NCBI GenBank assembly: GCA_025201375.1
Contig: JAIWZP010000003.1
Coordinates: forward strand, 620,001-684,000
Direction of reading: 5' to 3'
DNA length: 64,000 nucleotides
Origin: Gongronella butleri
Lineage: Eukaryota > Mucoromycota > Mucoromycetes > Mucorales > Cunninghamellaceae
The position numbers and the translations under genes are program-made. The notes under the pieces were generated by a model. The model did no database searches and was not told the origin of the DNA. It was given only the letters and a program-made list of their open reading frames with translations. Shown here piece by piece: positions 1-61,376 of this stretch (within the stretch, counting starts at the first letter, position 1; each line of letters begins with the position of its first letter).

Positions 1-1219
1 TTTTCCTTTTACTTTTAATTTCAAGCGGCCAAATGACATGCACGTGAGTAACTTTTTTCAGATATTTATGGGCAGAAAGCACTTTGAAATCATCTTTGCG
101 TCTTTGCACCCTACTGTACCTACATTCCATATATAAGCGCCGCATCATAATGGACAACAATAGATAGAGAGGGTCCAAAATGGCGCACCGCTTTGACAGG
201 CATCATTGGGTTTCATTTGGCGCACGTGTGGCTCTTCCAAGAACAATGTGGATTGTAGTTGCTCATGGTCACCGGATTTGCAATGAGCGCGTCCAAGTTG
301 TTGTTTCGCCTGGAAAAAAAAAGACAGTAAAATACGAATTTGTGCTTTTTCTCCGCAACAAGTTACCGTATTCCAAAGACACGAAGCCTATGGTATTGTA
401 TGTTTTGAGTCTCGCAACACCTAGTTCTGTTCATTAAAATACTGTAACATACATATTGGAGATCGAGTACAGTAAGCAGTTGCCGAGAAATTGTCTTGCT
501 TTTATCATAGCAGCTTTATATGATACAGTAGTTCTAGGTATACAGTATGTGTTTTACAGTATATACAGTATTAGTCGTTTGCCGACGAAAACGCATCCTA
601 CTGTACTACAAAATAAAATTTTATGTTTGAATTACTGTAACAACTCCTCCAAGTGCTCTCGTCAAATGAACCCATGATTGGGCAGCTGCGTCTGCTGGAT
701 GGCGCACAATAATGATGTCGATGATTTTCGAACTAAAACCACGAATTTTCCAAGGGGGGTGCAGTCGATCCCCGGAAAATCGTGAATTTAGATTGCTCGT
801 CAGATCACCACGCCATTTTCACTGTCATGTGAAGGCACCACATTTACCGGCAAAAATGCTATACGTACAGTACTTTAAAAAAACGGACGTGCTGCATTGG
901 TGGGCTCGGGCGTACAGTAGTAAATTAACGTTTGGGGCTTTATCATATTACAGTATTTTCGACACAGGTAGGGACAACTCAACGAAAAAAAGATAGAGCT
1001 TGCCCAACAACAGAAGAGTATCATAATGTCACGGCCCACCAGCTTGTGTCAAGAGGCAAACGCGCGCAAAAAAGGGCGCGCGAGCCCACGAGCTCGGAGC
1101 CACTGACGCGTAGTAGTGGCGCGTTGAAAAAAAAAGAAAAAAGAAAGAAACAAAAAAAATTGACACCACACCACGACCAGATCATCCTGAAAGCCCAGTG
1201 CTCAAGCCGGACGCGTTCG
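1..1219. other. Repeat-rich intergenic DNA, no supported gene
   Basis: AT-rich spacer with only short, unconvincing open frames. It carries twelve TACAGTA/TACTGTA heptamers (for example at 112, 440, 468, 524, 541, 555, 564, 599, 633, 866, 913 and 949) and one TACCGTA at 364. Positions about 665-860 are a degenerate copy of a dispersed repeat also seen near 24.2, 25.8, 37.7 (inverted) and 46.7 kb; the shared core reads ACGAATTTTCCAAGG followed by a CAGTCGA-like block. Confidence 0.6.
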
Positions 1220-1227
1220 ATTTTTTT

Positions 1228-2432
1228 TAGGGATGTTAAATCGAGAATCTCGCTCGAAAAACTCGAGGGTTCGAGACGAGATCGAGACGATCGAGACGAC
1301 TTGAATCTCGCTTGTCTCGATTGACAAGAAAGTAAAATCTCGCTCGTCTCGCTCGAATCACAATCTCGAACAAAAAAATTAGGTTATGTTGTATTTGCTG
1401 CTTGCAGAGCGTGATCTCATTAAGTAAAAATCACAATGGACGCATCCATGTGAAAGAGAATGTGCGATTACCCTAAGTCTGACGCGCTGGCCGTGTCTGG
1501 ACTGGTATTTCACAAGTTGTGAAAAAAGAAAAAAAAATAATAAAGCTACGCGATGCAAATCGCGTCGTGCATTCTCTGTGCCGCATCCCTGGATTCAAAT
1601 CCAGATGGCCGGGCACTTACCTAGTCCGGCTAATTAAGCCCCGCTCACACAATGGCTGCTGTCGCCAGGTCTTTACGTTTTAATCGCGATTTTACCATAC
1701 ATGAAAGGATAGCGCACCCTTTCCCTCATTTGCTCTCTTGTACGCACCCATGCTAAGATGCCTCATTCGCTATGTATGATCAGAGATTGCATTGACCAGG
1801 ATCTGGGCAGATGCAAGCCTGAGAAAAATAAAAAAAAATAATAATAATAAAAATTCTCATTTGCTTGCGATCACACAATGTCCCACTTGGCCATACGCGT
1901 CTTTACGCGCCCTTGTGCATTCATGCCACGGAACCATCATCTCTGCATCGTTTGCATATCCGAGGAACAGCTCAATCGCTGATTGAGCGCGGCTCATATT
2001 CAATTCATGCCTCGGAACGCTTGTATGCTTGACAGCCACTCATTGAAGCATTTCTTTGCATCTTACATCCCAAACCCTAGTTTTTACAAATTGTCTATAT
2101 AATAGAGTCCTCACTTTTTCTTAATAAACGGTATCAGATTCTCAATCAGTTTCCTGTTTTCCCTTTTTTATCTTCTTTTTCTCTCAATATCTCAGGTTAG
2201 GCGTAATGTTTCATCATGTATTTTAGATTACTGTAGTGGTGGTGTGGTGCAATGGGAAAAAGCTTTGTCTTGGCACTCTGGATGTGAAAGGTTCAGCTCT
2301 TGTCTTTGTGTCGACTTTTTTTGGTGGATTTTTTCACTCCACCAGCAGACAAAGTTTTGAAGAAAAATGCTCGAGTTTTGTCATGTGACATTTTCGAATC
2401 TCGCTCGAATCTCGCTCGAATTAACAACCCTA
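1228..2432. mobile_element. hAT-like MITE, copy A, split by a solo LTR
   Basis: The ends are imperfect inverted repeats: TAGGGATGTTAAATCGAG on the left and CTCGAATTAACAACCCTA on the right. An exact 8-bp duplication, ATTTTTTT, lies at 1220-1227 and 2433-2440. A paralogous repeat near 35187 carries the same flanks joined by one ATTTTTTT, so it is an empty site. An 8-bp duplication is characteristic of hAT transposons. The interior is made of CTCGCTCGAATCTCG-type repeats plus about 200 bp of unique sequence and has no transposase, so the element is non-autonomous. It is interrupted at 1387-2194 by a solo LTR. Confidence 0.75.
1387..2194 (+). mobile_element. Solo LTR (808 bp) nested in the MITE
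   Basis: The insertion is absent from the second MITE copy at 3428-3896. It begins TGTTG, ends TCTCA (TG...CA) and is flanked by the 5-bp duplication GGTTA (1382-1386 and 2195-2199). Near its right end are TATATAA (2096-2102) and AATAAA (2123-2128), the usual promoter and polyadenylation elements of an LTR. It has no coding capacity and is not related in sequence to the 231-bp LTRs of the chromovirus at 4260. A tRNA-like arm near 1590-1608 inside it does not fold as a tRNA. Confidence 0.7.
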
Positions 2433-2440
2433 ATTTTTTT

Positions 2441-3185
2441 GGATTCGAAAATGCCAAAAACCTCCTCCTATTTGTACTACAGTATTTTTGCATTCATCTC
2501 TCCATCTGTATGGTCGACCCTGCTCAAAAACAGTCGCATCGAATTCAGCGCAAAATTTGCAACAAAAAAGCTTAAACCCCCAACGCTCTACGATCGCTTT
2601 TGAAAAATTCAGGGGTCACTCAGGGGTCACACATTTCAATCTCAGAAAGTGCCAAATTTGGGAAATTTTAAACTCCGGGTGATCAATGCATCCCAAGCAG
2701 GTAATTCCGACAATTTGCTGTTGGCTGACAAAATGACAGGTCGCACCAAACCAGGAAAAAAATCCAAAGAGTGACGCATGAATGGCGATTGACTGCAAAA
2801 ATTTTCTACTTTGGGCAAAATTTTTTGTAAAAATTTAAGGTTTAACACTTCCAATTTAAGGAGATGGATTGCATGGAATTTTTATTTTTTTTACTTTTTT
2901 TTATTTTTTTATTTTGCACATTTTCTGCACTGACCGGGCTGCAGCCTGGTGAAATGACACCGATGCAAAAAGTTAAAACCCAAGCTACCGCGTTGCAAGT
3001 CATCCCATTACTTGCTTTGCCCCCCTGTTTTTACAGTAGTAAAACTGCAATAAAAATTTGGGATCGGCAAGATCGTTGTCGAGCAAATCGAGATCAAAAA
3101 TTTTGATGAAAAAGTGAAGTTTCTCTGCGAGTTTTAGCCATCATCCATCGATGAAACTGGTCTCATTCGATAGAGATGCAAGCGG
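2441..3185. repeat. Dispersed repeat R2, copy A
   Basis: This is homologous, at roughly 80% by eye, to 35189-35970. The homology continues on the far side of the hAT-like MITE (about 1190-1219), which shows that the MITE inserted into this older repeat. Copies A and B differ by small insertions at TA dinucleotides: TACAGTA at 2478 and 3032 here, against plain TA in copy B. No coding capacity was recognised. The purine and T runs around 2880-2920 are low complexity. Confidence 0.75.
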
Positions 3186-3427
3186 CGCCTTTGTTGACAC
3201 GTTAAAAGCGCTGTATGTTGTCTAATCCGTTGCCGAGAACATCGAGGTTGAAAATTTTTGTAATGTTTGAACGATTTTCACGAGCGTGCAAAGGTCACGC
3301 ATCAGCCAAATTAAACAAACATTCTGGAAATGTCGTCCAAACCCGTCTAATTCGAACAATAATGCAAGTTTCGTTGCGATCGAATAAGAATTTGACCAGC
3401 ATTATTGTTATTAACAATAATGCTTAT

Positions 3428-3896
3428 TAGGGATGTTAAATCGAGAATCTCGCTCGAAAATCTCGAGGGTTCGAGACGAGATCGAGACGATCGAGACGAC
3501 CTGAATCTCGCTCGTCTCGATCGACGAGAAAGTAAAATCTCGCTCGTCTCGCTCGAATCTCGAACAAAAAAAAATTAGGTTAGGTGTAATGTTTCATCAT
3601 GTATTTTAGATTAGTGGTGTGGTGCAATGGGAAAAAGCTTTGTCTTGGCACTCAGGATGTGAAAGGTTCAACTCTTGTCTTTGTGTCGACTTTTTTTGGT
3701 GGATTTTTTCACCCCACCAGACAAAGTTTTGAAGAAAAATGCTCGAGTTTTGTCATGTGACATTCTCGAATCTCGCTCGAATCTCGCTCGATCTCGCCTA
3801 GGAGAATCTCGATCGAGATCGAGATGACCCAAAATATTGACGAGACGAGACGAGACAAGGTGAATCTCGTCTCGCTCGCTCGAATTAACAACCCTA
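3428..3896. mobile_element. hAT-like MITE, copy B (469 bp)
   Basis: Same terminal inverted repeats as copy A (TAGGGATGTT... and ...AACAACCCTA) and the same interior order, but without the solo LTR. The flanking octamers, atgcttat and attgttat, match at 6 of 8 positions and may be a decayed target duplication. At 3612 this copy has a plain TA where copy A has TACTGTA (2229-2235). Confidence 0.7.
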
Positions 3897-4259
3897 ATTG
3901 TTATAATAAATGTGGGAATATCGATATTTTGGATTCATCTACATAACGACTCAGCTGACCTCTGGATTTCAACGCCATGTCGAAAAAAAACGCGGCAAAA
4001 TGGCATAATGAAAAAAAATTGGAGGCGATCAACCATGGTTTGAAATCTTTAAATTTGCGATTTGTGAAAATCTTCGAAATGTTGCCAATTTTTTTACAGT
4101 AATGATTAAAAAATAAACGTGCTAAAATTGTCCAATAATAATACTGTACAGTACAGTATGTTACTGCTTTGACAATGATCCAACTCTCATTTTCGGCGTT
4201 CAGCCTTCAGCGCATCGGCTTTGTCAGATTAGGACAAAATGTTCATTGTGCGCATCTCA

Positions 4260-4490
4260 TGTGAATGAGAAAGGACAAATGATAGGACTAAAGGTAGCTT
4301 TTTATGTCAAAAGTGAGAGAGAGAGAAAAGAAAGGGAAAATAGAGGGGAAAGAGACGTTTAAATAGGCTATGGAAATAGGCTATGAGGCGAATTAGATGT
4401 CAGGCATCACACGTCAGAGCGTGTGTGCAACTGAGCTTAAATGCAGGTCTGATCTGCTGCGCATCATCCAGATCAATGCCAAATTTGACA
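4260..4490 (-). repeat. 3' LTR of the chromovirus
   Basis: 231 bp, TGTG...GACA on the plus strand (TG...CA in both orientations). Identical by eye to 10704-10934. On the element's strand this copy lies downstream of the chromodomain frame and is therefore the 3' LTR. Confidence 0.93.
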
Positions 4491-5023
4491 TTGCCCCCCA
4501 CCAAGTTGGACACACGGTCTGACTTTTGAGGCAGGGAAAAGAATAAAATGAATGTGCAAGAGGTGCACACAATTGAGCGTCAAAATGACACAAGTATAGT
4601 AGCTCTGCAAAGCAAGGCAAGCCAAAAAAGCACGCAAAAGCGGCAGTGGGCTGCTTTTTTTTTTTTTTTAAATTTAATTGGCGCACGGGGGGGAAATTGG
4701 GTGCCAAGCCGCATGGGTGATCAATCCGGCGGTCCGACAGCAATTTCAACTCCGGCGGGGAGATGCGGTAAACAGAGTCGAGACGGGCAATCGCGCAATT
4801 TGGGCGTCTCTTGCTTTCTTTTTCTCGTTTTTATGTCCTTTTTCTTGACCTTATTGTCCATTCATACTTTTATACACATATAGACACTAGTAGTACCCTG
4901 TGTGGTCTGAGCAAGGTGCGAGACCACGTGCATCACAACAAAAAGCACAGCTAAATTCCGATAGCAGGGTAAAACGGTGTTTTTTTTTTTTTTAGGGGTT
5001 CAACAACGAGCCGAGCTCAATCT

Positions 5024-5671
5024 TTATTGCTTGCTACTGGGTTGGCCACGCCAATAGTTGTTAATAAGCGTCATTCCATCAAAGTTTTGCGGAGGAATCC
5101 AAAGATTGTGCTTTTTCGAGTAGCCACGCCATTTGACGAGATACTCGTACTTGCCCTTTTTGATTTCACGATGCGCCAGGATCTTCTCGACATGGTACGA
5201 GTTTCCTTTGGAGGGCGCATCTTCCTCAATATCACTGCTGTCATCAAATAAAGGATCATGCGATACAGGTTTGAGCTGATGCGGCGCAAAACGCTCAGGC
5301 AATCGCTCATTTATATGGTAATTTTCGAGGCGATATGATCCACCTTTTGTGCGCTCAACGACTCGGAAGGGGCCGTGATACTTGGGCTCAAGTTTGCGCG
5401 TCATGAGTGGGTCTGCAATGGCTACAAGGGAGCCAACTTGATATTCAACTAGCTTGTGCTTCTTGTTGAAGCGAGCCTGGGCGGCTTCACGCAGCTTGCG
5501 CTGGCGGCTAGCAATGGCAGGACGGATCACCTCTTGGATTTCCTTGTAATGGCGCTCAATGTCATCCGGATTGTACGAATACGTGGGGACATGCTTTTCA
5601 ATGGTGTCAGCGGGATCAACATTGCTTGTAATCAATGAGACCATTTGCGCGACGTGCATAAAAAAGATCAA
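5024..5671 (-). CDS. Integrase C-terminus with chromodomain (frame 3 of the element)
   Basis: This frame continues the integrase after a frame shift. It carries the basic linker, the GPY/F-type module (KYHGPFRVVE, about 5350-5380) and a C-terminal chromodomain (YHVEKILAHR...EYLVKWRGY...LWIPPQNF, about 5045-5200). In chromoviruses this domain guides integration to marked heterochromatin. The first ATG (5671) lies inside the overlap with the upstream frame, so the segment is probably expressed as part of the polyprotein and not from its own start. The shift from the upstream frame is +1 and falls within about 5620-5665. Confidence 0.85.
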   Translation of the reverse strand: MIFFMHVAQMVSLITSNVDPADTIEKHVPTYSYNPDDIERHYKEIQEVIRPAIASRQRKLREAAQARFNKKHKLVEYQVGSLVAIADPLMTRKLEPKYHGPFRVVERTKGGSYRLENYHINERLPERFAPHQLKPVSHDPLFDDSSDIEEDAPSKGNSYHVEKILAHREIKKGKYEYLVKWRGYSKKHNLWIPPQNFDGMTLINNYWRGQPSSKQ

Positions 5672-8600
5672 AGGGAGCGCTGCCAGTAAGCGAGTGTGGC
5701 TGCAAATTGTAATAGTAGCTCACAGTGTCGACATATTCATCCCAGTCCTTAAGACGGGAATCGACCAATTTCGCCAGCATTCGAGTGGTAGTCTGGACAA
5801 CGCGTTCTGCCGCACCATTGCTTCTAGGCGAGTAGGGCGTAATGAGACGCGAGTCAATTGATCCACATTGATGAATGAGCTTTACTAGCTTATTTACGAA
5901 TTCAGTGCCGTTGTCACTGGTGATTCGTTGAGGAAAACCAATGCGCATGAATATTTTCAGCAGTGTGCGAGCAACTGACATAGCTGTTTTGTCAGGGAGA
6001 GGCTCAAGCACGACAAATTTTGAAAAAATATCAATCACTACTAGCATAAAGTGGTTGCCAGAGTGCGAGGAATTGAAAGGGCCTGCCAAGTCAATTGCGA
6101 GATGGCTGAGCGGCTCTGTTGCTTCAATGCTTTTCAATGGATGGTAGCCTTGGCGAACCACAGAGAATTGCAAGCATTGAGGGCAACCTTGAACATGAAA
6201 GACAGCGTCGTCTCGCATACCAGGCCAGTCATATCCGAGGAGTTTCAAGGATTTGACCATGGCATCTGCACCAAAATGGCCTTTTAGGTGCTGGTCGCGG
6301 ATCAATTGCTTTTTTAACGACGCGTCGACTGGGTCATGCCTCGTCTCAGTGTCTAAAACACGTATTTGTGATGCATAAATGTCAGAGCACGAGGATTGTT
6401 CATGATACCAGTCTCCAAAATAGGCATCAATTGTGTCCAGATTCACGGGAATCATGTCAGGGCACGAAAAATCATCATGTGCAGCAAGCTGCATTTGATT
6501 GGCTGCCATTTCGGGGAAATGGGCAATCGATGATGACTGCACTATTTTGTTTTGTTCACTTTTTTCTTTTACTTTTTGTCTTTTGTCGTCGCCATGGCAA
6601 GTAACATGCTGGTCAACTGTATTGAGCTGGCGTTTATTCGCCCCCTCCAGCTCTATTTGGTCTTCAAATAGGCGAGAAAGGCTGTCAGCGATAATATTCA
6701 GCTTGCCTGGCAAGTGCACGACACGAAAATTGTAATCGAGGAGAATATCCAGCCAATTGGCCATGATAGCATTGACCTCAGCTTGGCTGTGCATGTATTG
6801 GAGCGCGCGATGATCCGAAAACACGGTGAATGTGGCGCTTTGACCCCAGAGATACACGCGGAACTTGCGCAGTGCAAAAACAACGCTCAATGTCTCCCTT
6901 TTCGTGGTACTATAGTTGCGCTCGGATTTCGACAACGAGCGAGCGACAAAAGATATGTATAAATGACGACTTTCATCCTTGGGATCGAGCTGATACAGAC
7001 AGGCACCAATGCCAGTCTTTGAGGCGTCGCAAGCGACGAAAAATGGACGCGAAAAATCAGGATGTGAGAGCAGAGGCGCTGACACAAGGAGAAATTTCAA
7101 CTTTTCAAAGGCACGCGTGTGCTCGACGGTCCACAGATGCTCGATTCTGCCCTTGGAACGCAATTGGTCCAGAGGATGCATGATGGTCGCAATATCCGGC
7201 ACGTAGTCACGGAAAAAATTGACGAAACCGCAAAAACGCATGATATCCTTGCCCGTACGCAATTTTGGCCACTGCGAGAGATTCACGAGCTTGGCCGGAT
7301 CAATGCGCGTGCCGTGGCCTGAGACAACGAAGCCGAGGAGGCGCACAGATGCATGGGCAATGAAGCATTTTGCAGGATTCAATCTGAGATTGGCAGAGGT
7401 TAGCAATTGGATCACTTGACAAACATGTTGCGTGTGCTCCTCCAACGAGTTTGAGAAAATAATCAAATCATCGATGAAATTGAGGACAAAAGGAAGTCCA
7501 TGGAGAAGGTTGCTTAGGGCTCTCTGGTAACGGTTAGATATGGGCTTAACGCCGTAGGGACAAGAGATAAAGGAATACTGGTGCATGCCAAAGGTGAAGC
7601 TTGTCTTGATCTGATCCTCATCGGCGATCTTAAAGGCTGAAAAAGCCTCGGCCAAATCAAGGGTAGAAAAAATTGACGCAGATGCAAGGCGCAAAAAGAT
7701 GGATTTCGTCGTGGGAATTTCGAAAAAATCATCAGGGATGAGCGCGTTGACACCGCGGATGTCAAGACAGGTTCTATGCCCAATCGTTTGACCAAACATG
7801 TTTTTCTTGGGGACCACGAGCAGCGGTGAATTCCACACGTTGCCGGGGTGGTTCAAACGACGGATGGCGCCTGTGTCAAGCCATTTTTGCACTTGTTTTT
7901 CCACAATAGGAATCAAGGCGGCTGGGATTGGATATTGGCGTCTGTATGCATATTTGCCCTCTGGAGTGGGCAAGGGCACGACTGCTCCTTTGACATTGCA
8001 AAATGAGCCTGGTGGGATTGCCTGATTGGCATCCACGATTGGCTGAATACGCGCCATCATAGCAGCGCGTTCTTTTTCTGTGCCAACAGGGGATTCACCC
8101 GCTGTGGGCAATTGATCATCGCCTGCCTCCGGATTAGGCGTGTTTGTTTTTTTATTTTTGTGAAACGGCAAGAGGCCATACAAACCCAAACCGAGCTTGT
8201 GCCAAATGTCGGTGCCAATGGACACTTTGATGCCATTGGGCATTTTTAAAAGCTCTAAAGAGTGCTTAATTGTGAAATCACCATGGGTGATCTTCAATGG
8301 CTCAGTAGACCCAAGACGAGGGCGTGTCACGCCTTCAATGGCAGTGTTGATGAGTCCCGGAGCGGGAGGAAAGAGCTTTATTTGTAAAAAATCAGCGTAT
8401 TCAGGAGAGATCATGGAGCGATTTGCACCACAGTCCACAAAAGCGAAAATATCGTCATCCTGAATGGTCACCGCAGTGAAAAAAGAATCACCGAGTGAGA
8501 AATTACGCGTGCCATCATTGATCTTCGCTTCCATCATGTGGATTAAAAGACGAGAAACAATTTTTTCATTGTTTTCTGGGGACTTACCGGAGGTGGTGTC

Positions 8601-9767
8601 CATGTGGGCATCAATGTAGGCCTGCGTGGGCAAAGGCGAGCTAATGGCAGGGTTCACTTGGGCCACCGCATTGGACATGCGATTGTCCACCGCGCGATTG
8701 TTGTGAGTTTCCGGGCGACGTGGGCAACTACGGAAATGACGACGACGATCATACCCGGCAGCCATGGGAAAAGGTTGCATACACCAATCGCAAAATTGGG
8801 GTCCCTTGGATGTGCCTTGGTCGGACACTTGGGCCTGGCTCACATTGATGTGGCCACCATTGCCATTGTTGTAATTGGTGCGCTGGCCGCCATTATACGG
8901 GCCTCGCTGCTGTTGCTGCTGATTGCCACGATGGTTGTTGTTATTGTTGCGCTGCTGCTGAGCATTGCCATTGTAGCCCTGATTATTGGGTTGTTGATGG
9001 GCGTTGGCATTGGCCGAATGCTGGCCATTTCGCTGTTGATTGCGATTGCCACGCTTGTGACGGTCGCTCTTGCGTCCCTGGCCCGATGATTGCTGCGACA
9101 CCTGCTGCTGCTGTTGCTGGACACCGTTGCCTGATGCCGAGGCAGCACCTTTGGTCGGTGGAGGGCCATCATGCAAAAAGAACAGTTGGTAGTGTGCACT
9201 TTTTTGCAGATCCCGGGCGAAAGTGACCAACTGAGAGAGCGGTGGATCAGCCGTTCGTGCAAACTCGCCGATGAACATGCTGTGCGTGGCGCGGTTGGCG
9301 ATCAGTGTGGTGATTGCCTGATGGCCAGCCTGATTCGCGCTCTCGGTGCCAGCTTTGCGGGCGAGCTCATAATAACGTTCCATGTAATCAACAATGGATC
9401 GCCCTTTTTTGAGTCGCATGGCTTGCAAAAGCTGCGAGTAATGAAGTGCACGGCTTGCACCGTCAAAAAGCTTGATGAGCAGCGGCTCCACATTGGCACG
9501 CCACTTCCACGCTGAGGTGTCCACGCCCTGAATGGCAACACGCCATTGCGAGAGTTGAGCGCGCGTTAAAGCAGCCTCAATGACTTGGTCCCAGGCGTCA
9601 TCCAGTGCAATACCTGCGCGGGCCATGACTGGTGTCAATGCCTGTAGGTACGCTTCGACATCCTCATAGAAATTGGTGATGGGGCGTCCTTTGCGATCAA
9701 GCTTAGCGTCTTTGTCTGACGAATCGTCGACAGAATCGCGGTGGTAGTCAAATCTCAGAAGGGGCAA
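5616..9767 (-). CDS. Gag-Pol polyprotein, main frame
   Basis: About 1380 codons. In order: a retrotransposon gag/capsid-like region (about 9200-9680), a Gln/Asn-rich stretch, a C2HC zinc motif (about 8730-8800), an aspartic protease with DCGA in place of D-S/T-G (about 8410-8450), reverse transcriptase with FIDD at the catalytic site (about 7460), RNase H (SDHRALQYM, about 6800), then integrase with an HHCC zinc domain (about 6170-6310) and a DDE core (AIDLAGPF, TSDNGTEF, SNGAAERV). The listed start at 9767 is a TTG codon. The frame is open upstream to about 9800, so it is more likely entered from the gag N-terminal frame by frameshifting than by independent initiation. Confidence 0.93.
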   Translation of the reverse strand: MPLLRFDYHRDSVDDSSDKDAKLDRKGRPITNFYEDVEAYLQALTPVMARAGIALDDAWDQVIEAALTRAQLSQWRVAIQGVDTSAWKWRANVEPLLIKLFDGASRALHYSQLLQAMRLKKGRSIVDYMERYYELARKAGTESANQAGHQAITTLIANRATHSMFIGEFARTADPPLSQLVTFARDLQKSAHYQLFFLHDGPPPTKGAASASGNGVQQQQQQVSQQSSGQGRKSDRHKRGNRNQQRNGQHSANANAHQQPNNQGYNGNAQQQRNNNNNHRGNQQQQQRGPYNGGQRTNYNNGNGGHINVSQAQVSDQGTSKGPQFCDWCMQPFPMAAGYDRRRHFRSCPRRPETHNNRAVDNRMSNAVAQVNPAISSPLPTQAYIDAHMDTTSGKSPENNEKIVSRLLIHMMEAKINDGTRNFSLGDSFFTAVTIQDDDIFAFVDCGANRSMISPEYADFLQIKLFPPAPGLINTAIEGVTRPRLGSTEPLKITHGDFTIKHSLELLKMPNGIKVSIGTDIWHKLGLGLYGLLPFHKNKKTNTPNPEAGDDQLPTAGESPVGTEKERAAMMARIQPIVDANQAIPPGSFCNVKGAVVPLPTPEGKYAYRRQYPIPAALIPIVEKQVQKWLDTGAIRRLNHPGNVWNSPLLVVPKKNMFGQTIGHRTCLDIRGVNALIPDDFFEIPTTKSIFLRLASASIFSTLDLAEAFSAFKIADEDQIKTSFTFGMHQYSFISCPYGVKPISNRYQRALSNLLHGLPFVLNFIDDLIIFSNSLEEHTQHVCQVIQLLTSANLRLNPAKCFIAHASVRLLGFVVSGHGTRIDPAKLVNLSQWPKLRTGKDIMRFCGFVNFFRDYVPDIATIMHPLDQLRSKGRIEHLWTVEHTRAFEKLKFLLVSAPLLSHPDFSRPFFVACDASKTGIGACLYQLDPKDESRHLYISFVARSLSKSERNYSTTKRETLSVVFALRKFRVYLWGQSATFTVFSDHRALQYMHSQAEVNAIMANWLDILLDYNFRVVHLPGKLNIIADSLSRLFEDQIELEGANKRQLNTVDQHVTCHGDDKRQKVKEKSEQNKIVQSSSIAHFPEMAANQMQLAAHDDFSCPDMIPVNLDTIDAYFGDWYHEQSSCSDIYASQIRVLDTETRHDPVDASLKKQLIRDQHLKGHFGADAMVKSLKLLGYDWPGMRDDAVFHVQGCPQCLQFSVVRQGYHPLKSIEATEPLSHLAIDLAGPFNSSHSGNHFMLVVIDIFSKFVVLEPLPDKTAMSVARTLLKIFMRIGFPQRITSDNGTEFVNKLVKLIHQCGSIDSRLITPYSPRSNGAAERVVQTTTRMLAKLVDSRLKDWDEYVDTVSYYYNLQPHSLTGSAPFDLFYARRANGLIDYKQC

Positions 9768-10351: not shown

Positions 10352-10703
10352 TACAAGAGGGGAAATGGTGTCCTGAGCGGAGTGAAAATTTTTTCACTTT
10401 GGTGAATCGACCAAGATTACTGGTGAATGAACAAAAAGAGCGCGTCGCGATGCGAACCGAAGCAAAAATCAAGACGTGGTTGGTTGATTCAATGGCGGAC
10501 TGACGTGTTGAGATGAGTCAGGTCGATATTGGTGTGGGAATCGATGCAATGATACCCAAAAAAAAAGATGTTTTGCTGTGTATGTAGTAAAAGTGCTGTT
10601 TGTCGACGTACAGAGCGATTGACGTGCGACAGTGATCGAATGTGGGTGTGTAGGGGAAGAGTGTGTATAAAAGAAGAGATGACGTAGAACTTATCAAAAA
10701 AAA

Positions 10704-10934
10704 TGTGAATGAGAAAGGACAAATGATAGGACTAAAGGTAGCTTTTTATGTCAAAAGTGAGAGAGAGAGAAAAGAAAGGGAAAATAGAGGGGAAAGAGAC
10801 GTTTAAATAGGCTATGGAAATAGGCTATGAGGCGAATTAGATGTCAGGCATCACACGTCAGAGCGTGTGTGCAACTGAGCTTAAATGCAGGTCTGATCTG
10901 CTGCGCATCATCCAGATCAATGCCAAATTTGACA
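10704..10934 (-). repeat. 5' LTR of the chromovirus
   Basis: 231 bp, identical by eye to 4260-4490 and followed by the target duplication TCTCA at 10935-10939. On the element's strand it precedes gag. The next bases inward are a T7 run followed by GATAAGTTCTACG, which is not a standard tRNA-derived primer site. Confidence 0.93.
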
Positions 10935-11050
10935 TCTCATGCCGCGTGTAAGTTTTCAGCATGACCGAATAATAACAAATTACTGTAGCGCGCCAGAATC
11001 GAAATTGTGAATTTCTGGAGAAATACAGTACCGTACTGTACAGTACAGTA

Positions 11051-12061
11051 CAGTGCCCTAGCAAAAAAAAGTTTACACTTTGGCTATTGCTCCACAGTGT
11101 GAGATGTCAAGCAATCACGTTAATCTGTTCTGTATTGATCAATAATGGCTTAAATGACATGAAATTTCGTAGAAACAATGTTGTAAAAGTATAAAAACAA
11201 TTCTAAAATTATGAACAGGCTATAGCAAGCGGATTTTGAAATAGACTAAAAAAGGGGTACCTGACGCGTCACGCGACGCGACGCGTACCTACGCGTATAC
11301 AATGGCCTGTGGGGATGAAATGATGACAATATGAACACCATCTCCAAATTTTTCTAAGACGGGTTCAATGGTGCATGATTGTATTCTATGAATCAATTTC
11401 ATGTTACATGCATCACATCGGTGCTGTGATCGACAAATGTAAAATCATCATGTGACACGCGTCACGCGTCAGGCGCATCTGAAATAACAATTTTCATTTT
11501 TGTCATTTAATTTTAATCCCTAGTTGACTTAAAACCATTATAATACATTAATTTGAAGGACTAGAATAGGCTGTTATCAATTGGTTGACCAGTAGGAGCA
11601 ATACGACCATGTTAGGAAGAAAATCGCGACTTTGACGCGTCTGACACGTGCACGCGTCATATAATGATTTTACATTTATCGATCACAGCACCGATGTGAT
11701 GCATGTAACATGAAATTGATTCATAGAATACAATCATGCACCATTGAACCCGTCTTAGAAAAATTTGGAGATGGTGTTCATATTGTCATCATTTCATCCC
11801 CACAGGCCATTGTATACGCGTAGGTACGCGTCGCGTCGCGTGACGCGTCAGGTACCCCTTTTTTAGTCTATTTCAAAATCCGCTTGCTATAGCCTGTTCA
11901 TAATTTTAGAATTGTTTTTATACTTTTACAACATTGTTTCTACGAAATTTCATGTCATTTAAGCCATTATTGATCAATACAGAACAGATTAACGTGATTG
12001 CTTGACATCTCACACTGTGGAGCAATAGCCAAAGTGTAAACTTTTTTTTGCTAGGGCACTG
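11051..12061. mobile_element. Fold-back element with Tc1/mariner-type ends
   Basis: A 1011-bp element with inverted arms of about 400 bp (11051-11455 and about 11655-12061) and a centre of about 190 bp. The ends are CAGTGCCCTAGC... and ...GCTAGGGCACTG, flanked by TA on both sides (11049-11050 and 12062-12063). CAGT ends and a TA target are characteristic of Tc1/mariner transposons. There is no transposase frame, so the element is non-autonomous. Both flanks are runs of TACAGTA units, and several ACGCGT motifs lie within the arms. Confidence 0.8.
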
Positions 12062-12063
12062 TA

Positions 12064-12637
12064 CAGTACAGTATCGATTTTTGCATCGGCAGCTTGATTG
12101 ACCCCCGGCTATTTCTTTGTCTTCGAGAAGCAAGTCGCCAAAACGCACAAATGACAATAAGATTCAAGGCTGGGAGGGCACTTGATAGCGAGCTGTCTTG
12201 ATGATGTTAATAAATTGAGATTTCCTAGCGATTTTGCAAGGGGGTCGGTCGCTATTATTTTATGTAGAGCAGTAAAATTTAGGTACTCGAATCGCTGCGC
12301 CACTCACATCCCGGGTAAACATGCCTGTTTGTCTACAAAAATGAAATAAAAATCAAAGGTTTGTTATCTGATTTTGACAAAAATTTTGATCCGCTGACTT
12401 TTTATTGAAAAATATAAAGGTTAAAACGCTGTTTTGAGGTCTCTCGTGGCTCCGCTTGATGATGCACTGTTGTCTGCATGCATGCTGTTGTGCGTCGCCT
12501 TTTTTATCCCTGTAGTTAGTCTAATCTATCATTTTTCTTTAAAAAAATAAAAAAATACAGTATGATATCATAAAAAAAGCTTTGTAAGATCACAGGTCAC
12601 TGCCAACAACGCATAACTCTGAGTGATCCGATGATTT

Positions 12638-33600: not shown

Positions 33601-35140
33601 GTTCAAAATAACAAAACAAAAAAAAAACCGGCTTGCAATTGGCACAATTGACAGTGGGTGCGACAATCAAGGCACGACAAATAAAAAAAAAAAAACAAGA
33701 AAATACTCTGAATCGGCACCAGTGTTCGTCGTTTGCTCTTTTTTTTTTTACGAGACAAACGACACGACGAACGGAGAGAAAAAACAACCGAAGATGGAAG
33801 CACAGCGAGTCTCTCCCCTCTTTTTTTTTTTTTTCTCGAACGACACCACGGAACATTTCCCGCTCCCTTTGCGCATTGTTCCCCTTTTTTTTCCTTCTCC
33901 GCATGTTGCGCAGTAATGACCTCGCCTGACCCGCTGCCCGTGTATTTTGATGTCATCAACTTGAGACCCCTGACATACCCTGTGACCTCATTTTAAAGCA
34001 AAAACAGGCGAGATGCGCGCGTAAAATGAAAATAAAGCAGAAAAACGCGTCTCCAGCGACAAGCTGGGTGTCAACAGGCTCCGATATGATCGTTACTATC
34101 CCGATGTGAAGGATATTTACGCAGAACCAGTCCCAAATGATTCAGAAAAAGGCTCATCGAAACATTTTTTTTAATTAGAAGATGTGTTGTCTAGAAATCT
34201 AATGAATACAATTGAGCACATCCTTTCCAGGAGATCCCAGCAAATATCATCATACAGTAGAACGGCGCGTCAGTTGGGTCATCCTTTGGGTCCCTGCCAC
34301 TATTTTTTTGGCTTACACGGCGACAACAAGCGAATGGACAAATGATTTTTTTGGCCTCGTCAGCTTGCCTTCAAGCACAACAATCTTAATGATCTCAAAC
34401 CGGTTCAAGTGATCTCTGATCATGACACAGATGCTGACCAAAAAAAACTCAATTCACGATGCATGCCTTGAACAGAACCACCTTTTTTATTACAAGAGCA
34501 ACGATTGCGATCTTTGCGGTGGCGGATGGGAGATTTTTCTCCAAGGCGTTAAGACCAACGAGCGACGTCAGACCGCGGCGCAGCAGTGACTGCAGGCGTC
34601 AGCGAGGGCTGAGTATGATACTGTATCTTCAGGGAACAGGCATCATGATGGACGCGAGCCAATTACCGTAATTTAGTATGATACTGTTGTAGTCCTTGAG
34701 TTTGACAAAATGCCATTGCCACGAGCAGCGCAGCACCTGCATCATCGGTGATTCTGTTGATGCACAACACTTGGATCTCAATCTCTGTAATCTACTAGAA
34801 GCTTTGAATTTCGTTAACCAGCCAGCGCCGGAAAATACTGTACATACGCACAAAAGCATTACGTACTGTATGATTTTCATTTTTCAAGTACTGTATTTTA
34901 CATGCAATTGGTGGGACGCTCAGTCAACAACCTCTCCATGTTTTTAGCACATTGGAGGATAGAAAATGACGCGCGCTTTCATCACAGTATCTTTAGCAGC
35001 GCGCAACAACACACAAAACATCACACATTTGCTTTTGAAATCAACAAGCAAGGCGCGTTTTCCGGTCTTTGCCGACTTGCTGAGCCTCCAGAAGAAGTTT
35101 TTTTACAACCTGCTCGCCCGCCAATGAAACCTGCATCAGC
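33601..35140. other. Upstream region of the CM1 gene and repeat-rich spacer
   Basis: No supported gene. The first 300 bases are the CM1 gene's 5' flank, with A- and T-runs. From about 34250 the DNA carries TAC(A/T)GTA sites at 34253, 34619, 34836, 34864 and 34889 and a TACCGTA at 34664. Confidence 0.5.
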
Positions 35141-35970
35141 GTACGTAAACTATGGCCCAGTGTTCAAGACGAACCCGCCCGATTTTTTTGGACTTCAAAA
35201 GACCAAAAACCTCGCATTTGTACTATTTTGCATTCATCTGGCCACCTGCATGCATGGTTGACCCCGCTCAAAAATAGCCGCATCGAATTCAGTGCAAATT
35301 TGAAACAAAAAAGCTTAAACCCCCAAAGCGCTACAGTATTATGATCACTTTTGAAAAATTCAGGGGTCACTCAGGGGTCACACATTTCAATCTCAGAAAA
35401 CGCCAAATTTGGGAAATTTCGAACTCCGAGTGATCAATGCATCCCAAACAGGTAACTTCGACAATTTACTACTGGCAAACAAAATGGCTGGTCGCCCAAA
35501 CTTACATAAGAAAAATGTCCACAGAGTGACGCATGAACGGCGATCGACTGAGAAAATTACCGTATCTACCGGTACTTTGGGCAACTTTTTTTTTTGCAAA
35601 AATTTAAGGTTTGACACTTCCAAATTAAGGTGCGTACGTAAATCGCATGGATTTTTTTGTGCTGTATTATTTTTTAATTTTTTATGATATTTTGCACATT
35701 TTTGTGCGCTGCCGCCGCGTGGGCTGCAGCCTGGTGAAATGACCGATGCAAAAAGTTAAAACCCAAGCCAGCGCGCCGCAAGTCATCTCAAGAAGATTAG
35801 GTGCTTTGCCGACCTATTTGTTAGTAAAACTGCAATAAAAATCACAGGTTTATTAGACCATTGTCAAGCAAATCGCGACCAAAAATTTTAATGACAATAA
35901 GCGAATTTTCTCTGCGAGTTTTAGCCATCCATTGATGAAACTGGTCTTATTCGATAGAGATGCAAATTAC
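35141..35970. repeat. Dispersed repeat R2, copy B
   Basis: Homologous to about 1190-1219 plus 2433-3185. It serves as the empty-site reference for the hAT-like MITE (single ATTTTTTT near 35181-35188). It also serves as a mutual reference for TA-site insertions: plain TA at 35224 and 35822 where copy A has TACAGTA, and TACAGTA (35332), TACCGTA (35558) and TACCGGTA (35567) where copy A has TA or a near-TA. Another TACCGGTA lies at 35968 at the repeat's end. Confidence 0.75.
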
Positions 35971-35975
35971 CGGTA

Positions 35976-36514
35976 TCTGCTGTATCGTATTCATCTTCTA
36001 CTCTTTTCTATTACTGTACTTGTAAGAAATTGACACCCGAAGAAATAAATGGATCTTCTTCAGCAAAACGCGCTGCAAGCAAGCACACTGTTAGGCCCCC
36101 AGATCCGCAGCACAGATTGCAGAAGATCACTCTATTTTATTTTTCTTTTCTTACGCGCTCGCTGCGCCATCTCTGATCTAGATGACGCTCCTCGCGCTTC
36201 CATAGACCTTCCTAAACGCCCATCTTTCCATCTACCTTTCCAAACGCCCACATTCCATCTTGCACGTTCCAAAAGGTCAAAACGCCAATCATGATCCACA
36301 CAAAACGCCCATCTACAATCGCCAAGACGCGATGGACCATTCTAGATCGAAACATCCAAATAGACGCGTCTTGCCGCAGGCTTCATATTAGAATATTCCC
36401 TTAATTTCAAAACTATAAAAGGACACCCGCTTCGCGGATGTCCTTCCCCCTTTTTCCTTACCTCTTCCATCTGTTACTTTTCCCCTTGTACCCTCTTCTT
36501 GTACAAAATAAACG
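35976..36514 (+). promoter_or_regulatory. TATA box and hairpin upstream of a small putative gene
   Basis: TATAAAA at 36414-36420 is followed at once by a near-perfect 10-bp hairpin, GGACACCCGC-TTC-GCGGATGTCC (36421-36443), then a CT-rich leader and the ATG at 36515. A TGTTAGGCC at 36089 and an AATAAA just before the ATG resemble parts of an LTR, so this could equally be the remains of a solo LTR. I could not fix its ends. Confidence 0.4.
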
Positions 36515-37475
36515 ATGCCTTATTACGACAAGTTTTTTGTGTTGACCCATCACGTGGCCGCCTCCTCGTCGGGCCATGACACACACACCACCAACGATTT
36601 TGGTGCAAAATACTGTACCAACATCGCCGTGGGTAGCCACATTATTCAGCAGCAACAGACAACAACAACCGTGGCAAGCACAAGCGCTGTTGTTGTTGCC
36701 AGTACCAGCTTTGGCCCGTCAGTCATGCAGCAGCAGCAACAGCAATCTGACGGATTGGAGCTTTGTTGTTCGGAAATGTAATGCCATTCTTCTTATTGCT
36801 TGCTTGCTTGTAGTAATTGCAACTACCACCATATACTGAATGATGATAAACATCAATCAATCATCATGATAGATACTACATATTATTTTTATTACTGTAA
36901 TAGTTTGGAGAACGAGGAAGTCAAGGTCCAGGAGCCACGATCGGACGACCGTCTACCGGTATTCTGGTTGTTGTCGACGGCGTTGACATTTCTGCTGGCT
37001 TTGCCAATTTCCAGCGACAACAAGTCCTCGAGTTGCCACTGATGATGCAGCTTCATGAAAAAAACGCATGTTCACCATCTTTTGTAGGCGAAATACAACA
37101 AAAAAGAGGCCATTGAGTCTTCTAATTTGTGATATTTTGTTCACTTTTTATTATAGGTCGCGTTCATCAATTCTTCTTCTGCAGTCAAAGAGCGTGGTGC
37201 ACGCAGATGCTCACGCGTCACTGCCACCTGCGGCGGCCATTGCGGCACTGCAGCGCAAGAAGCTTGCCCGCGACATGCGTTTGGACGCGTACCTTGCGCC
37301 CCCAGCTGCCATGCACAACGTGGCCTCAATCGTCCAAGTAAGATTGATATTGTTTCTTCTTTTTTTTTTCATCATGACCATCATGACGATGCAATGTTTA
37401 TGATATCATCGTCATGATTAAAAAAGGAATTATTACCATACTGTACTACTACTGTTGTACATGACAGGAGTGAAG
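36515..37475 (+). CDS. Putative small gene, structure uncertain
   Basis: Exon 1 probably spans 36515-36777 (88 codons, Gln- and Thr/Ser-rich, first residues MPYYDKFFVLTHHV), with a GTAATG donor. Later coding-looking pieces are 36905-about 37040 (LENEEVKVQEPRSDD..., then a hydrophobic stretch) and about 37158-37338 (ALQRKKLARDMRLDAYLAPP). The latter ends at a CAA|GTAAG donor, and a possible last exon at 37470 gives an immediate stop. I could not find one splice pattern joining all pieces in frame with good signals. No family was recognised. TAC(A/T)GTA or TACCGGTA sites lie in exon 1 (36611), near the exon 2 acceptor (36894) and at a possible donor (36955). It may be a pseudogene or repeat-derived. 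Confidence 0.35.
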
Positions 37476-59593: not shown

Positions 59594-60993
59594 TAGGAGG
59601 TCGGTCCATTACTCCTGTTTACGACGCGTTCCCTTAATTTTAAGCAGAATTTTAGGCCCCCCTATGGTCCCAGGGAGGCTGTGTGAAAGGGCAAAATGCG
59701 TTCGGCCGGGGGGCCGAAGCGATTCGGGTCATTGGACATATTCTGCCCCCCTCTGCCTAAAGATCCCTTCTAAATCCACGTTTATCCATCCATCCATGAT
59801 TCAGGATGCAATCCCACATTCTTGAGCAACGTCCTTGGAAATTGGGGGCTGGCGGGACTATATGAAGGCGTACCGAATCTGTCCAATGGGCCCGAATCTG
59901 TCCAATGGCCCGAATCGCTTCGGCCCCCCGGCCGAACACATTTTGCCCTTCACAGCCTCCCTGGGACCATAGGGGCCTCTAAAATTCTGCTTAAAATTAA
60001 GCGAACGCGTCGTAAACAGGAGTAATGGACCGACCTTCTAGTTTGAAAACGGAATTGGTTTGTAATAAATGGGGCATTTTTTATGTGAAGAGAGATTATA
60101 GAAGGTGAGCAAATGATGAATAGTGAGACGTTGACACTTTTTCAAGATCTCGCGAGAAATTATTGGACGTTCCTTCAGGGAGACTGGCCAGTCGTTGAGA
60201 ATAAGAAGAATCACCGCTCAGAAATAAAGAGTATACACTACCTAACATGGAAGTGGCAAGAACTATGTGCTTGAACATTTGGGGTTTATCCCTATGTTTT
60301 TCTTTTTGGCGGTCTTGTTTAGCCGAAAGAACTTTCGGGGTCCGTATCGAGGCGTAGAGAAAGGCATCTTGATTTTGTATCACTTGCTTACAGGGAGACC
60401 ATAGCTCATATGGCGCAATTCATACCAAAGACCACTTTTAATACCTTGTATTATGAATTTTTACTGGAAACAGCAAGAATGACTTGATGAACAGCTTGAT
60501 AAATGCATTTTGCAAATGTTTTCTAATGTTAAAATACGGGTCATGTGTGCTAGAAACTGTAATCTCATTGGTTTTAACATGTTACTATGATGATTGATGG
60601 TTATGACTCACGAGCAGCCTATATCAATGCAGCAGATACAGCTCCAATAATTTCTCTTAAGATCTTGAAAAAGTGTCAACGTCTCACTATTCATCATTTG
60701 CTCACCTTCTATCATAGCTCTTCACATAAGAAATGCCCCATTTATTACAAACCAATTCCGTTTTAAAACTAGAAGGTCGGTCCGTTACTCCTGTTTACGA
60801 CGCGTTCGCTTAATTTTAAGCAGAATTTTAGGCCCCCCTATGGTCCCAGGGAGGCTGTGTGAAAGGGCAAAATGCGTTCGGCCGGGGGGCCGAAGCGATT
60901 CGGGCCATTGGACATATTCTGCCCCCCCTCTGCCTAAAGATCCCTTTTAAATCCATGTTTATCCATCCATCTATGATTCAGGATGCAACACCA
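59594..60993. repeat. Nested inverted-repeat structure
   Basis: A unit of about 150-220 bp occurs three times: direct at 59596-59816, inverted at 59893-60039 and direct at 60773-60993. Each contains GGTCGGTCC.TTACTCCTG, ACGACGCGTTC and the CGGCCGGGGGGCCG palindrome. The second and third copies extend inward by a further 125 bp or so, giving two long arms (59893-60165 and 60649-60925) around a loop of about 480 bp. The first copy makes a second, smaller inverted pair with the second. No transposase or clear target duplication was found. A 95-codon minus-strand frame at 60096-60383 has no recognisable family. Confidence 0.75.
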
Positions 60994-61376
60994 CAATCTG
61001 GACCAACCTCCTTAAACCTTTCTGTCGCAATAAAAAAAAAAAAGGAGAAAAGGGACCAAAGTACGCGGTGAAGTGCCAATTGATATATTTTGGACAGCAT
61101 CCGCACACGCCAAATGTCGTCATCGACATTGAAGCACAAAACCGGCGTAAAAACCACCATTACGACTTTTTGACGCCCTTTTATGCTTCTTTTTTTTGCT
61201 TTCTTTCTTTTTTTTTACGCGATGTTGGTAAAGTAAAATGCATCGCATTGCTTTTTTGGCAGCCAATAGCAAAGAATAGCTTCAATTTTTGCATTGCGCC
61301 GCCTTCGTCGCTTTTTTTTTTTTTTCTTTCACACTTTTTTTTCACACTTTTTTTTCACTCTTGATCTTTTGTCGCC
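60994..61376. promoter_or_regulatory. Upstream region of URM1
   Basis: 383 bases, with T-runs increasing towards the ATG and a TTTTTTTTCACAC repeat just before it. The region is probably the promoter and leader. No specific site was recognised. Confidence 0.45.

Follow-up and report, generated by a model that had tools for sequence, protein, structure and literature searches.

Putative excision footprints of Tc1-type transposons in Gongronella butleri, and resident elements lodged between them

Scars and repeats in the 64-kb window

The window, that is, the whole 64-kb stretch of DNA that was analysed from Gongronella butleri, a soil fungus of the Mucorales, contains 40 occurrences of the words TACAGTA and TACTGTA (together TACWGTA), where 1.28 are expected (sd 0.96) and where none of 100 dinucleotide shuffles reached 40. 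We refer to these words as scars, in keeping with the reading argued for below. They lie among dispersed repeats and around a foldback element, and the features on which the analysis draws are the following.

112..955, + strand: cluster of 12 TACWGTA scars.
2229..2235, + strand: TACTGTA scar in the first of two copies (1224-2419 and 3424-3897) of a MITE that the preliminary description labelled hAT-like; the second copy has TA at 3612-3613, and the net difference of 8 bp consists of CTGTA and a GTG unit.
2428..3418, + strand: R2 copy A, a dispersed repeat with many copies, mostly at 71-84% identity, which serves as a ruler for indels.
2478..2484, + strand: TACAGTA scar in R2 copy A; copy B has TA at 35224-35225 (net 6 bp, with one extra T of a T run).
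3032..3038, + strand: TACAGTA scar in R2 copy A; copy B has TA at 35822-35823 (net 4 bp, less one T of a T run).
4095..4158, + strand: four TACWGTA scars, including a tandem of three (TACTGTACAGTACAGTA, 4142-4158).
11024..11050, + strand: scar array of five units (TACAG TACCG TACTG TACAG TACAG TA) to the left of a foldback MITE.
11051..12061, no strand assigned: non-autonomous Tc1-type foldback element (the foldback MITE) with ends CAGTGCCCTAGCAAAAAAAAG, 421-nt arms that are 99% complementary (the length as detected, flanking units included) and TA at both flanks.
12062..12073, + strand: scar array of two units (TACAGTACAGTA) to the right of the foldback MITE.
34253..37445, + strand: second cluster, of 10 TACWGTA scars, including that at 35332.
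35332..35338, + strand: TACAGTA scar in R2 copy B; copy A has TA at 2589-2590 (net 8 bp, with extra bases).
35683..35689, + strand: TATGATA scar (TCA/TGA class) in R2 copy B; the paralogues read TA in 8 cases and a TA-NNN-TA form in 1, and 12 are not callable.

None of the 40 scars lies inside an open reading frame of at least 180 aa on a mechanically produced list, and such frames contain 607 of the window's 2,051 TA dinucleotides; this absence is expected if the insertions shift the reading frame. Of the 22 words of the form TATSATA, one falls within such a frame. Several other repeats share the window. An insert of some 813 bases at 1389-2194 interrupts the first copy (1224-2419) of the MITE that bears the scar at 2229; the second copy (3424-3897) is without it. 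Identical direct repeats of 233 bp (4259-4491 and 10703-10935) stand around minus-strand open frames (5024-9767) that resemble, by eye, a Ty3-type polyprotein, and the repeats may belong to the LTRs of a young element. Interleaved direct and inverted repeats, several in number and 63-217 nt long, occupy 59594-61013. A protein encoded at 51769-52926 matches a Gongronella butleri protein at 93% identity over 78%.

The preliminary description of this DNA had singled out the four TACWGTA scars listed with paralogues above as places where one repeat copy carries a five-base insertion that duplicates the TA of the other. All four contrasts between TACWGTA and TA are present; however, local alignment of the paralogues gives net length differences of 6, 8, 4 and 8 bp, so none is an exact 5-bp indel. 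The site at 35332 is the least clean (CTACAGTATTATGATC aligned with CTACGATC). Because three of the sites carry an additional change and this fourth one is untidy, they suggest insertion of a scar without proving it. The R2 site that corresponds to position 2478 of the window seems to have been hit several times, since copies elsewhere with the same flanks read, in window orientation, CTG (locus L013), CAG (L027) and TATCATA (L014).

Five-base insertions, scar classes and genome-wide load

A larger set of paralogous comparisons was obtained from a 264-kb sample that comprises the window and 20 stretches of 10 kb picked around R2 copies elsewhere in the genome, rather than at random. All-against-all alignment of this sample yielded 854 unique insertion sites of 1-46 bp with good flanks. 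Forty-five of these insertions are five bases long, and 27 of the 45 turn TA into TA-NNN-TA (12 CAG, 9 CTG, 3 TGA, 2 TCA and 1 CGG) while 18 do not; the dinucleotide next most commonly duplicated by five-base insertions is GT, with six cases. Among insertions of 4, 6, 7 or 8 bp, TA is duplicated in only 7 of 80 (Fisher p 1.2e-9 against the five-base class). The excess of CAGTA and CTGTA indels at TA that the preliminary description had predicted is thus found (21 of the 45), and the random lengths and sequences that would have spoken against it are not. The further objection, that the plain TA might be a derived deletion, is largely answered by the polarity of the 27 TA-type sites: of 366 paralogue readings 222 are not callable, and the others give plain TA 114 times and a TA-NNN-TA form 30 times, which suggests that plain TA is usually the older state where a call can be made. 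The analysis also went beyond that description, to the genome-wide scale, to second (TCA/TGA) and third (CCG/CGG) scar classes and to nests of scars around elements.

These classes are visible in the spectrum of TA-NNN-TA words in the same 264 kb, measured against a first-order, composition-based expectation. CAG/CTG occurs 337 times against 6.6 expected, TCA/TGA 170 times against 11.8 and CCG/CGG 44 times against 6.2, with weaker excesses of CTA (14 against 3.5) and AAA (84 against 28.0); TATATATA (12 against 0.4) and TA-CG-TA (71 against 14.3) are raised as well. The TCA/TGA class contributes 5 of the 27 TA-type five-base insertions, and its word TATSATA occurs 9,529 times in the genome (reversed control 1,031). 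For TACSGTA the genome count of 1,999 is below that of its reversed control (9,577) and is uninformative by itself, so that the CCG/CGG class rests on the 264-kb spectrum and one indel. Two side observations concern the same sample. TA-CCGG-TA is enriched 28-fold (19 against 0.7; examples are at 35567-35574 and 35968-35975 of the window) and is possibly the 4-nt scar of another family. CWG and TSA scars are neighbours sharing a TA 47 times, against 12.4 expected from their numbers alone, and clustering in non-coding DNA may explain part of this excess. The source of the TCA/TGA scars was sought in the fetched sequences by looking for TCA/TGA-ended pairs and for the words that follow TATCA or TATGA, and the 15 best candidates were only inner pairs of foldback MITEs; no element with TCA or TGA ends was found in these sequences. 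DDE_1 (pogo/Fot1-type) elements were also considered as a source of scars; the genome has only three PF03184 matches, each with one or two internal stops, and their ends are unreadable.

Counted as a pattern in this one assembly, TACWGTA occurs 16,213 times in 33.0 Mb, about once per 2 kb; the expectation scaled from the 264-kb sample is about 825, and the reversed word ATGWCAT gives a high control of 6,355 but differs in its dinucleotides. Chains in which two, three or four TACWG units follow in tandem number 1,613, 695 and 301 (controls 12, 2 and 1). By subtraction there are 14,600 scar runs, of which 13,682 consist of one unit, 524 of two and 394 of at least three (918 runs of at least two), and 2,531 of the 16,213 scars (15.6%) lie in chains.

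Resident elements and the origin of the scars

The window's foldback element (11051-12061; 1,011 bp) is without any ORF of at least 180 aa, and each of its ends reads CAGTGCCC directly inside the flanking TA; relatives are present at loci L018, L025 and L026. As should be the case for MITEs derived from a resident Tc1-type element, the MITE ends (beginning CAGTGCCCTAGC and CAGTGCCCGGAC) match those of locus L065 and of autonomous copies. The transposase-bearing elements have open frames of 339-378 codons and begin with CAGTG immediately after TA, and the presence of elements with such ends in the same genome supports the interpretation of the words as scars. Pfam domains were searched in two proteins, those of L042 and L065, which match PF01498 (HTH_Tnp_Tc3_2; 58.0 and 54.9 bits, respectively) and PF13358 (DDE_3; 59.3 and 51.5 bits) above cut-off, and 34 residues separate the second D from the E, as in DD34E, in the L042 protein and in the 346-codon L041 protein (residues placed by motif). 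The window element, L018, L025, L026, L042, L065 and nine more autonomous copies sit at a duplicated TA and have terminal inverted repeats that start with CAGT; L066 has one disrupted end. By their domains, spacing, TA target and ends these elements appear to belong to the Tc1 group of the Tc1/mariner superfamily. Eight autonomous copies agree in the element part of their end windows, which suggests recent movement, and within the R2 family occupied, empty and scarred states are all found, since L018 has the foldback MITE within R2 and other copies are without it.

There are 74 DDE_3 matches in the genome, in groups that are alike in score and frame length. One copy of a second family (346 codons; L041+L063) was read; it has 212-bp inverted repeats that are 94% identical, ends that read CCGTGGCTC inside TA, and plain TA flanks with no scars directly adjoining. 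Unlike the CAGT-ended elements it begins with CCGT, and its ends would fit the CCG/CGG class of scars. At the highest-scoring DDE_3 loci (L029-L040), a search for terminal inverted repeats by TA-anchored 32-mers found nothing, and BLAST for inverted repeats gave no convincing pair of ends. Five of these loci (L036-L040, on G000 C5, C6, C15, C54 and C86) form a family with frames of 312-336 codons that is more than 99.8% identical over more than 1.2 kb, lies near contig ends without detectable terminal repeats, and is perhaps subtelomeric.

The indels, their usual direction, the excess of the words and the resident elements with matching ends and TA flanks are what we observed, and we consider it very probable that TACAGTA and TACTGTA are excision footprints of CAG-ended Tc1-type transposons. 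An element would insert at a TA and duplicate it. On exit the transposase would cut one strand 3 nt inside each end and leave 3-nt overhangs, C-A/T-G, on both chromosome ends; these would pair except at the middle base, and end joining would lengthen the empty TA by five bases, to TA-CAG-TA or TA-CTG-TA. This chemistry of cleavage and joining is modelled on Sleeping Beauty. The mismatch at the middle base would account for the two triplets left in a class, CAG with CTG and likewise TCA with TGA, and loss of that base from the joint could have given the TA-CG-TA words. In a second and less certain step, the inner TA of tandem scars would be either a favoured target of CAG-ended elements or a place that they leave less readily.

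Two other origins of the words were weighed. If TACWGTA were a functional motif, such as a protein-binding site, kept between genes by selection, its near-palindromic form and its absence from all ORFs of at least 180 aa in the window (0 of 40) would be accounted for; however, the word appears as five-base insertions at differing TAs of paralogous repeats, in mixed tandem chains and right beside transposon ends, and the other enriched triplets, TCA/TGA and CCG/CGG, share with it only the form TA-NNN-TA. We regard this explanation as highly improbable, and slightly more so the growth of a (CAGTA)n pentanucleotide microsatellite by replication slippage. The 918 runs of at least two units are of the kind that slippage makes, but slippage needs a pre-existing repeat, and 13,682 of the 14,600 runs are single; moreover, many arrays mix CAG and CTG units and are not copies of one unit, and the callable empty paralogues have plain TA.

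Elements between tandem scars

In the genome as a whole, CNG usually stands directly beyond the TA that flanks the element ends: 206 of 237 TACAGTGCCC motifs (103 and 103 of 119 and 118) read CNG-TA-CAGTGCCC. Reversed controls gave 29 and 22 occurrences of TACAGTGCCC and 1 and 0 of the CNG form, so that some of the 31 motifs without CNG may have arisen by chance. Of the first 100 places on the motif list, 84 pair up as element ends, 78 of them with CNG, and 16 are unpaired, 5 with CNG; both ends adjoin CNG in 36 of the 42 pairs, and the six paired ends that lack it have TA-CG (one), GA-CG (one) or other letters (four). As background, only 84 of 9,239 TAs (0.9%) in the 264 kb have CNG on both sides, and 1,368 (14.8%) have it on one side.

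The number of scar units at each flank was counted for 32 elements, 15 of them autonomous elements or MITEs met regardless of their flanks and 17 of them MITEs taken from the CNG-positive list; L066, because of its disrupted end, and L043, L044 and L015, which have another type of end, were left out. The 17 preselected pairs are uninformative about the frequency of CNG, for which the unbiased figures are 206/237, 78/84 and 15/15, the last being the elements not picked by their flanks, all of which have CNG at both ends (13 of 15 with at least one full unit on each side). At least one full TACNG unit is present on both sides of 28 of the 32 elements. In the four exceptions an abutting element takes the place of the unit (C28 and L093) or the CNG is not preceded by TA (C26 and L103); in C26 and C28 the left CTG has CA, not TA, beyond it. 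In three places (C28:217695/217703, C23:13938 and L015 8304-9322) two elements abut with one common TA and no intervening CNG. The word CACTGTACAGTG occurs 7 times (control 1), and of the three occurrences that were read two are abutting ends and one is the C26 end with CA beyond it.

The adjoining triplets are not uniform. The left triplet is always CTG in the eight autonomous copies read (C28 left out), and L042 has CAG; the right triplet varies, within one 1.3-kb family, among CAG, CTG and CGG, and the middle base of the CNG in 100 places from the CNG-positive list is A in 37, T in 55, G in 7 and C in 1. Of 38 MITE-sized pairs, 4 have a G and were not counted; in the remaining 34 the two flanking triplets disagree 22 times where 16.8 are expected, which is not significant (p 0.086). 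Nine of the 28 elements (32%) have one unit, and no more, at each flank, which is close to the share that double scars contribute to all tandem-scar junctions (524 of 1,613, about 32%), although this expectation covers chains with A or T as the middle base and the element count allows any base. An apparent excess of elements at the margins of long arrays was dropped as unconvincing, since a single unit on one side was found for 6 of the 9 elements with at least five units in total, against 3.8 expected.

Three accounts of these nests can be compared. The mobile unit might be longer than its inverted repeats suggest and carry the triplets with it (CNG-TA-CAGTG...CACTG-TA-CNG), inserting at any TA, with the lone scar as its own terminal triplet. 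Such a unit would account for lone scars at plain TAs, for the near-constant CNG at the ends and for the constant left CTG of the eight autonomous copies; on the other hand, the right triplets differ within the 1.3-kb family, all four bases occur in the middle position, abutting elements share one TA without CNG between them, and nearly all elements should have one unit per side, where 32% do, as for random tandem-scar junctions. We therefore think it unlikely, though it merits more weight than the idea that an element builds its own array by repeated exit and re-entry at one place. The latter is made conceivable by the long arrays beside some elements and by the re-insertion of a Stowaway element beside an existing footprint, described in passages of PMC1925063, but it predicts that one-sided states should be common, and CNG is present at both ends of all 15 unselected elements and at 78 of 84 paired ends; we consider it improbable. 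The empty R2 paralogues cannot decide between these accounts because other copies show the ancestral state and not that immediately before insertion.

With the triplet variation, the abutting ends and the scarcity of one-sided states against these two accounts, what is left is insertion into, or retention at, tandem scars. In this third account the scars themselves would be landing or resting places: Tc1 elements may insert preferentially, or stay, at the inner TA of CNG-TA-CNG, each excision adding a unit and with it new places, so that footprints would build up a stock of favoured sites and thereby hold the elements away from genes. We judge the case for this proposal to be evenly balanced. 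The lone scars (13,682 of the 14,600 runs) arose at plain TAs, whereas the CAG-ended elements now present sit at CNG-TA-CNG, and if both come from the same families the time of residence must differ between plain TAs and nests. On that assumption we estimate, from the standing counts of scars in chains (15.6%) and of paired ends beside a CNG (78 of 84) and not from a measured rate, that a stay in a nest would be some 30 to 70 times longer than at a plain TA; alternatively, an older, extinct CAG-ended family could have made the lone scars.

Among known systems, impala of Fusarium oxysporum is a fungal Tc1-type element with CAGT-type ends, and the elements described here are like it in these respects by description rather than by sequence; we know of no scar nests for fungal Tc1 elements such as impala. 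The footprint of Sleeping Beauty is TAC(A/T)GTA, and its footprints have been studied as single events in assays. Here, in contrast, about sixteen thousand words of the footprint form are present in one genome, with elements lodged between them, and they are known from sequence alone. The passages of PMC7827188 on Sleeping Beauty excision describe a Tc1/mariner element with a TA target that leaves 3-nt 3' overhangs on the donor, the overhang becoming the footprint. In the Stowaway MITEs of a beta-amylase intron of Triticeae, parts of PMC1925063 report several putative excision footprints at one site, a present element in a TA that an earlier element had occupied and left, and current elements enclosed in TA...GTA footprints. 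That case, as set out there, concerns one locus across species and another terminal sequence, whereas ours is a genome-wide pattern in one genome; it is the nearest printed precedent for the re-use of a scarred TA that we have seen. For ZB, a zebrafish Tc1/mariner element, excision footprints of 0-3 bp and a preference for AT-rich palindromic targets are given in PMC7913693, whose passages on target choice, unlike the nests here, describe no preference for the element's own footprint. Among the open-licence PMC papers searched, we recognised no report of a genome-wide footprint load or of scar nests in this fungus.

The footprint model, which we hold with high confidence, describes a familiar kind of event; the novelty lies in the load, in the presence of several scar classes and in the resident elements lodged between scars. 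Excision footprints are usually met singly; here, at about one word of this form per 2 kb and partly in chains, they can serve as a history of transposon movement. The TA-NNN-TA spectrum is likewise a simple bioinformatic hint to the ends of formerly active transposons, even where the elements are gone. If the elements truly lodge in tandem scars, the scars would be a safe harbour that a cut-and-paste element makes for itself.
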